From positions 1 to 45,750 of the forward strand of contig JALSJE010000125.1 in the NCBI GenBank assembly GCA_026989495.1: DNA of 45,750 nt, written 5' to 3'. The position numbers were made by a program, and so were the translations under genes. A model generated the notes under the pieces. The model saw only the letters and a list, made by a program, of their open reading frames with translations, had not been told where the DNA came from and did not search any database. The stretch is from Gammaproteobacteria bacterium (lineage in GTDB: Bacteria > Pseudomonadota > Gammaproteobacteria > S144-34). Shown here in pieces: positions 2,334 to 45,706 of this stretch (the first letter of the stretch is position 1; every line of letters starts with the position of its first letter).

Positions 2334-2495
2334 GAAAGGTCTGAAAAATTCGATCTTTCAGACCTTTCCCGCGGCCAGGGACGGCCGCGGGAGAGCTCAT
2401 GCACAGGGAAGTGCATGACGACCCCAGGAAAATCCGAATGGCCGCAAAGCACCTCAGCGCTGATCGATCCGCGCAGCGGATTGATCTGAGTTTCC
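2334..2495 (+). repeat. Multi-hairpin repeat element, copy 1 of 3
   Basis: GAAAGGTCTGAAA...TTTCAGACCTTT / CCCGCGGCC-AGGGAC-GGCCGCGGG / ATGCAC-AGGGAA-GTGCAT / GATCGATCCGCGCAGCGGATTGATC...GTTTCC; aligns along its length to 15527-15691 (reverse) and 45545-45706. Confidence 0.9.
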
Positions 2496-15526: not shown

Positions 15527-15691
15527 TGAAACGCTGATCAATCCGCTGCGCGGATCGATCAGCGCGATAGTGCTTTCGCGGTCCATTTCGATTTTTCGCG
15601 TGTCGTCATGCACTTCCCTGTGCATGGGCCGTCCCGCGGCCGTCCGTGGCCGTGGGGAAGGTCTGAAAAATCGCGATTTTTCAGACCTTCC
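15527..15691 (-). repeat. Multi-hairpin repeat element, copy 2 of 3, in the secA 5' intergenic leader
   Basis: Reverse complement starts with a perfect 36-bp palindrome GGAAGGTCTGAAAAATCG/CGATTTTTCAGACCTTCC (15656-15691), then the GC-rich hairpin, ATGCACAGGGAAGTGCAT and the GATCGATCCGCGCAGCGGATTGATC hairpin. Confidence 0.92.
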
Positions 15692-44673: not shown

Positions 44674-44825
44674 GCCGCACCTCGTGGACGGCGGGCGGCC
44701 ACCAAGCCGAGGGCAAGTCCAGCCGGCGTCCCTCAGCCCTCCGCGCCAGACGTCGTCGGATGGTCTGGAGTCGCCACGCTTTCGTGGACACCTGATGCTT
44801 TGGGATGGAGAAGGAGGTGTCTACG

Positions 44826-45531
44826 ATGGCGAAGACGAGAAAACCGTATCCGCCGGAGTTCCGGCGGCAGATGGTGGAGCCGGTAGCGGGCCGGCCGGAG
44901 CCCGGATTCGCTTGCCCGGGAGTTCGAGCCGGCGGCCGAGAGCACCCGCAACCGGGTCCGGCAGGCCGATCGTGACGAGGGGCGTCGTGGCGACGGCCTG
45001 ACGAGCCCGGAGCGCGATGAGCTGCGGCGGCTGCGGAGGGAGAACCGCCGGCTCAAGATCGGGCGCGAGATCCTGGCAAAAGCCGCGGCTGAGGTATCGC
45101 CCGGGAGACCGACTCGGTGCCGCCGAAGTCTTCGAGGCCGTAGAGGGTGAACCGGGCCCGTTACCTTGTGCCCACGATGTGCCGGCTGCGCGCATTCTCC
45201 CCGAGCGGGTTCCATGCGTGGCTGAAGCGCCCGATATCGGCCCGGGCGCGGCGGGATGCGGAGCTGGCGGAGAAGATCGAGGCCATCCATGCCCGCTCCC
45301 GCAGGACCCATGGGGCGCCCCGGATTCGCGCCGAGCTGCATGCCGAGGGCGAGCGTGTCGGGCGCAAGCGGGTGGCGCGGCTGATGAAGGCCAGGGGTCT
45401 GAAGGGTGTCAGCCGCCGCCGGGGCTGTCGCACCACCTGCCGCGGCGAGGCGGCCCGGGCGGTGCCGGCCCCGGTGGAGCGGGACTTTTGCGGCCGAGGC
45501 CCCGAACCGGCTGTGGGTGGCGGACATCACC
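44826..45531 (+). mobile_element. Degenerate IS3-family element (orfA and orfB remnants, frameshifted and 3'-truncated)
   Basis: orfA-like MAKTRKPYPPEFRRQMVE..., and in another frame RDELRRLRRENRRLKIGREILAKA; orfB-like MCRLRAFSPSGFHAWLKRP...RRTHGAPRIRAELHAEGERVGRKRVARLMKARGLKGVSRR..., then in another frame AEAPNRLWVADIT, ending at repeat copy 3. Confidence 0.88.
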
Positions 45532-45532
45532 G

Positions 45533-45706
45533 GGAAACTCTGATGGAAGCTCTGAAAAATCCGGTTTTTCAGGGCTCCCCGCGGCCATGGACGGCCGCGG
45601 GACGGCCCATGCACAGGGAAGTGCATGACGACACGCGAAAAATCGAAAGGGACCGCGAAGCACTATCGCGCTGATCGATCCGCGCAGCGGATTGGTCAGA
45701 GTTTCC
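45533..45706 (+). repeat. Multi-hairpin repeat element, copy 3 of 3, with perfect 11-bp terminal inverted repeats
   Basis: Left GGAAACTCTGA (45533-45543), right TCAGAGTTTCC (45696-45706); core 45545-45706 aligns to copies 1 and 2. Confidence 0.92.

Follow-up and report, generated by a model that had tools for sequence, protein, structure and literature searches.

A four-hairpin element in the secA leader

The stretch of DNA analysed here (45,750 nt, hereafter the window) contains three copies of a short repeat, one of which occupies the 5' leader of secA (Table 1). An earlier note on this sequence had described three copies that align end to end and share two identical blocks. Both blocks are found in all three, and the copies also align over their full length with 80 further copies. 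The start of the third copy moves from 45533 to 45545, its first 12 bases being an extra terminal unit, GGAAACTCTGAT; similar extra end units lie beside other copies of the element. A repeat common to contigs L087 and L189 (~92%) occupies window positions 44766-45531, stopping one base before this unit; in translation (LWVADIT) it resembles what we take to be the last part of a transposase of the IS3 type.

The element is ~164 bp long, starts with GGAA(G/A), finishes with GTTTCC, and carries four hairpins in the fixed order A-B-C-D; the focal copy ends in A, against C in the consensus. Its ends, previously described as inverted repeats, are imperfect terminal inverted repeats (TIRs) of ~16 bp (GGAAGSTCTGAAAAAT / GGAAACTCTGATCAAT), left and right being identical at 13/16 positions for the GCT type (GGAAGCTCTGAAAAAT versus GGAAACTCTGATCAAT) and at 12/16 for the GGT type. 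Both ends are palindromic, each TIR being followed by its own inverted complement to form hairpins A and D. All four hairpins named in the earlier note are present, though not perfectly paired throughout: hairpin B of the focal copy has one mismatch (left arm CCACGGCC) and hairpin A is mismatched in copies 1 and 3. A consensus scan of the 15.5 kb copy detected no intrinsic terminator or promoter.

Table 1. Coordinates of the element copies, their parts and associated repeats (window positions unless a contig is given)
Feature	Position	Strand	Remarks
Element copy 1	2334..2495	+	left end of GAAAGG type
Element copy 2 (focal copy)	15527..15691	-	full element in secA 5' leader; aligned with 82 other copies
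secA start codon	15506		
Hairpin A, copy 2	15656..15691	-	left TIR and its own inverted complement; 36-bp palindrome
Left TIR within hairpin A, copy 2	15676-15691	-
Hairpin B, copy 2	15634..15655	-	CCACGGCC-ACGGAC-GGCCGCGG; consensus CCGCGGCC-AGGGAC-GGCCGCGG; sequence-conserved
Hairpin C, copy 2	15607..15626	-	CATGCAC-AGGGAA-GTGCATG; sequence-conserved
Hairpin D, copy 2	15534..15562	-	palindrome at right end; three pairs changed on both sides
Right TIR, copy 2	15527..15542	-	consensus read inward GGAAACTCTGATCAAT; 12-13/16 identical to left TIR
Element copy 3	45545..45706	+
Extra 12-bp right-end-type unit	45533..45544	+	GGAAACTCTGAT; abuts left end of copy 3
~320-bp repeat, three copies	L102:15839-16157, L064:215-534, L124:2226-2561

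Copy number and taxonomic range

A profile made from copies in the source genome (G000) was run over 1,740,877 of its 2,536,958 bases (69%) and returned 94 strong matches, of which 92 were non-redundant after overlapping contig ends were dropped, a density of about one copy per 19 kb. Scaling to all 2,536,958 bases gives an estimate of ~134 copies for the whole genome. The high genome copy number predicted from the window is thus confirmed, with many more copies found beyond it. Two other species of the genus (G001 and G002) contain dozens of copies each, at 77-87% identity. Among the 369 genomes of the class that we searched, the 366 outside the genus gave no real match; in four of these, matches at about E 5e-4 spanned 21-31 bp, which is chance level, and were rejected.

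Scanning a genome collection with the hairpin-C core matched two contigs. One (L053) is a gammaproteobacterial MAG contig syntenic with the source genome at about 85%. The other (L054, JALSGW010000039.1) carries the element and is filed as alphaproteobacterial, but is probably mis-binned because it has 124 bp in common, at 99%, with the end of a contig of the source genome (L156). The family is apparently restricted to one genus. None of the virus contigs carries the element core, and those with the right-end motif had no partner end. No Rfam family scored above its gathering score for the element.

Target duplications and empty sites

Exact 4-bp direct repeats, all in one register, flank 28 of the 73 usable copies, rising to 42 of 73 within one mismatch. 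Shuffled pairing of the flanks gave a mean of 1.05 and a maximum of 8 in 5000, and other registers off the match diagonal gave at most 2 copies with identical flanking tetramers. The duplicated tetramers varied in sequence among copies. If end units duplicated in tandem are treated as belonging to the element, several more copies show a target duplication outside them, for example L128:3221 ATCT, L088:6984 GACC, L167:3861 AGCC, and L108:14760 ATGC. No clear target duplication was seen at any of the three window copies. The 8 bp beside the element are 59% AT versus 26-36% further upstream, and a TATAAT-like hexamer (up to one mismatch) lies within 20 bp of 19 of the 92 copies, whereas points drawn at random from intergenic sequence have one in 5% of cases (p=2e-7); some of this excess of -10-like hexamers follows from the AT preference.

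Empty sites were found both within the genome and between species. In the source genome, a copy in L102, flanked by the duplication ATGG, splits a ~320-bp repeat that is intact in L064 and L124. The GTAG-type hairpin that this repeat contains (GTAGGCGCGGCTTCCAGCCGCGCC) is REP-like and distinct from the element; the repeat may go with a RAYT-like gene in L168. The secA leader itself is empty in the sister species G001 (L039), reading CATTCCGAATCTTATAGACCGG versus CATTCCCCAT-element-ATAGAGCGG in the source genome. A further empty orthologous site was identified by comparing L053 with L083, and at seven copies of the relatives the flanks are syntenic in the source genome and the element is absent there. 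At three pairs of loci (L034/L025, L037/L089, and L049/L073), both species have the element in the same gap, at a different point or in opposite orientation, which most likely reflects independent insertions; shared insertions at L037/L089 and L049/L073 were ruled out, as flanks and duplications differ. No insertion common to two species was found among those that could be assessed.

A repeat of ~164 bp with TIRs, a fixed 4-bp duplication, dispersed copies, empty sites, and no coding capacity has the properties of a miniature inverted-repeat transposable element (MITE), one of the two readings that the earlier note had proposed. Fixed-length duplications combined with inverted repeats point to a DDE transposase in the biology of insertion sequences, and because the element has both, we infer movement by such an enzyme. 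Very probably, then, the element is a non-autonomous DNA transposon that depended on a DDE-type transposase acting in trans, one that cuts AT-rich, mostly intergenic DNA with a 4-bp stagger. It forms a new MITE family, and the broad outline of how it spread has good support.

Search for a mobilising transposase

Searches of the three genomes with transposase families PF01609, PF05598, PF13586, PF13701, PF13546, and PF13751 identified no autonomous partner. They gave two IS-type loci (L051 and L052, matched by PF01609/PF05598/PF13586/PF13751), which have other ends. Solitary element ends in ~69% of the source genome likewise led to no autonomous partner, and a full-length insertion sequence bounded by these ends, of which the repeat might have been one end, did not turn up in the parts examined. 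Compared with the ends of E. coli IS5 (GGAAGGTGCGAAYAAG), the left end (GGT type) agrees at 12/16 positions and the right end at 9-10/16; as IS5 was picked for this comparison because of an apparent resemblance, the agreement is weak evidence. End similarity and duplication length weakly suggest a kinship with IS5.

Palindromic ends, high copy number, and extragenic position would also suit an element of the REP/REPIN type that relies on a Y1 (RAYT) transposase, and the genome has one RAYT-like gene as well as solo A and D palindromes. We consider this very improbable, however, for an element with TIRs and 4-bp target duplications. The RAYT-like gene is present in one copy in the source genome only (L168), on a contig containing neither the element nor its hairpins, and G001 and G002 carry the element without a Y1 match; a RAYT link was ruled out on these grounds.

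Folding, covariation and mosaicism

The sense strand of the element folds at -84.3 kcal/mol (z -7.6), and the opposite strand is about as structured (z -7.1). In the alignment of 83 copies, standard pairs make up 97.9% of 3621 cells. Changes on both sides occur in 105 cells, compared with 39.9 after shuffling and no more than 12 with the partner slid. These two-sided changes are confined to hairpin A (five pairs) and hairpin D (three pairs). Hairpins B and C barely vary, hairpin B having no pair changed on both sides; their near-invariance says little on pairing and points to sequence constraint or recent spread. Presumably the terminal palindromes stay paired because they are important either as DNA or as RNA. 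On the sense strand, G-U accounts for 66 cells versus 39 for A-C, an excess that weakly favours pairing at the RNA level, the cells not being independent.

Strong folding and covariation are what one would expect of a conserved structured RNA family, immobile, vertically inherited, and acting at many loci. Empty sites, target duplications, lineage-specific positions, and the lack of an Rfam match all speak against such a family, to which we give the slimmest of chances, and the empty sites rule it out as the sole explanation. Distances among copies of the source genome, taken segment by segment, are almost uncorrelated, and the copies are therefore mosaics in which single-copy histories are blurred. 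Hairpin-A type is scattered on the tree of the interior, requiring 39 changes against a minimum of 10 and a shuffled mean of 51.8. The simplest reading of this mosaicism is gene conversion between copies, the alternative being independent, coordinated change of both arms. Two same-orientation copies 70 bp apart (L080:5373-5769) have identical interiors, and their A and D hairpins differ yet remain self-complementary. The highest identity between any two copies is 96.3%, which gives no hint that the element moved very recently, although the assembly may hide identical copies. Solo palindromes without the rest of the element also occur, both 43-bp D palindromes (L131:22-64, L193:128-170, L081:18011-18053, and L099:17763-17805) and 35-36-bp A palindromes (L092:3257-3291 and L180:130-164).

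Position and orientation relative to genes

A simple and approximate codon-usage gene caller predicted 1662 genes covering 88% of the sequence. Although so much of the sequence is predicted to be coding, 91 of the 92 copies lie outside predicted genes; a single overlap agrees with the earlier judgement that the reading frames crossing the element are not convincing genes. For 63 copies both neighbours were called without overlap, placing 44 in codirectional, 13 in convergent, and 6 in divergent gaps. Within codirectional gaps, 33 copies have the same orientation as the genes versus 11 opposite (p=0.0013), and among copies no more than 120 bp upstream of a start codon, 39 share the orientation of the gene and 10 oppose it (p=4e-5). 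Downstream of stop codons the corresponding numbers (32 versus 22) do not differ significantly, and the orientation bias is therefore tied to leaders. Many copies sit a short way ahead of a start codon, where they probably enter the transcript as an array of leader hairpins.

An alternative is that an element that spread as a MITE is now kept for the host, in 5' leaders and the gaps between cistrons, as a transcribed array of four hairpins that would tune mRNA processing or stability according to orientation, with RNase III at Neisseria Correia elements as the model. The upstream bias, the codirectional bias, the covariation of hairpins A and D, and the preference for G-U over A-C on the sense strand all argue for it. 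On the other side, no insertion common to two species was found that would mark a copy as retained; the covariation could equally arise from a need for palindromes at the DNA level or from conversion of whole hairpins; the cell counts are not independent; and the orientation bias can come from preferential insertion or from selection that removes copies in a harmful orientation. We regard host retention as unlikely on balance. Its extended form, a mobile leader-RNA cassette whose hairpins are kept at the RNA level and which has been recruited in one orientation ahead of dozens of genes, secA among them, for genus-wide post-transcriptional control, is a more speculative proposition still. The MITE family is unusual in combining covarying palindromic ends, sequence-conserved interior hairpins, mosaic copies, and one strongly favoured orientation upstream of genes, and it makes the question of portable leader RNAs testable for bacterial MITEs.

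IS110-type insertions at the element ends

Six IS110-like insertions were noted (L114:1-216, L123:17030-17471, L107:2761-3089, L148:1-130, L153:1-130, and L096:1-16). In each, CCATACCAT is the last sequence of the insertion and is followed at once by CTGAAAAAT of hairpin A, or by CTCATCTGAAAAAT in L107. The insertions thus lie at CTGA in the terminal repeats of the MITE, and have MITE copies or solo A palindromes as hosts. The probable other end of the inserted element, GGTCCCGAAT or GGTCCAGAAT, abuts CTGAAGGAAACTCTGATC in L131 and L193. Its reading frame includes MREVSVIGLDLAKQLFQLHGVDAHGRVVLRR, which we take to mark the IS110 family. By analogy with IS110/IS1111 elements, which target REPs (PMC1525189, PMC11187229, PMC11208160), this arrangement suggests that an RNA-guided insertion sequence targets the terminal repeats of the MITE, an apparent IS110-type target thereby being embedded in a MITE end. 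Another IS110-type transposase (PF02371; L195 and L196) is common to G001 and G002.

Comparison with known systems

By way of working, the closest system appears to be the Correia element (CREE) of Neisseria, a small, geneless MITE present in more than 100 copies in a small genome, mostly directly upstream of genes, whose terminal repeats fold in the transcript and can be cut by RNase III (PMC10969869, PMC2649163). The present element is likewise small, geneless, high-copy, and mostly upstream of genes, a likeness of kind with no sequence relation. Its ends, moreover, presumably differ from the Correia repeat. It is also distinguished by its palindromic ends and by two additional hairpins in its interior. 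For Correia elements, promoters, an IHF site, and cutting by RNase III have been documented.

IS5 duplicates 4 bp of target, as does the present element, and IS5-family ends likewise begin with GGAAG. The IS5 target is YTAR, whereas the tetramers here are varied, and searches of the three genomes gave no IS5-type transposase with these ends. QMITE2 of Coxiella is another high-copy gammaproteobacterial MITE, and its palindrome is the target of an IS110/IS1111-type element (PMC10969869). The two MITEs apparently share a palindrome hit by an IS110-type element; the insertions described above recall those of IS1111 in QMITE2 (PMC10969869) and of insertion sequences in REPs (PMC1525189). As far as known the two are unrelated, the GTAG-type palindrome being that of QMITE2. 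REP/BIME sequences and the pneumococcal BOX element are also extragenic and hairpin-forming, and the modular structure of BOX resembles the mosaic hairpins seen here; TIRs flanked by 4-bp duplications, together with an invariant A-B-C-D order, set the present element apart from both.
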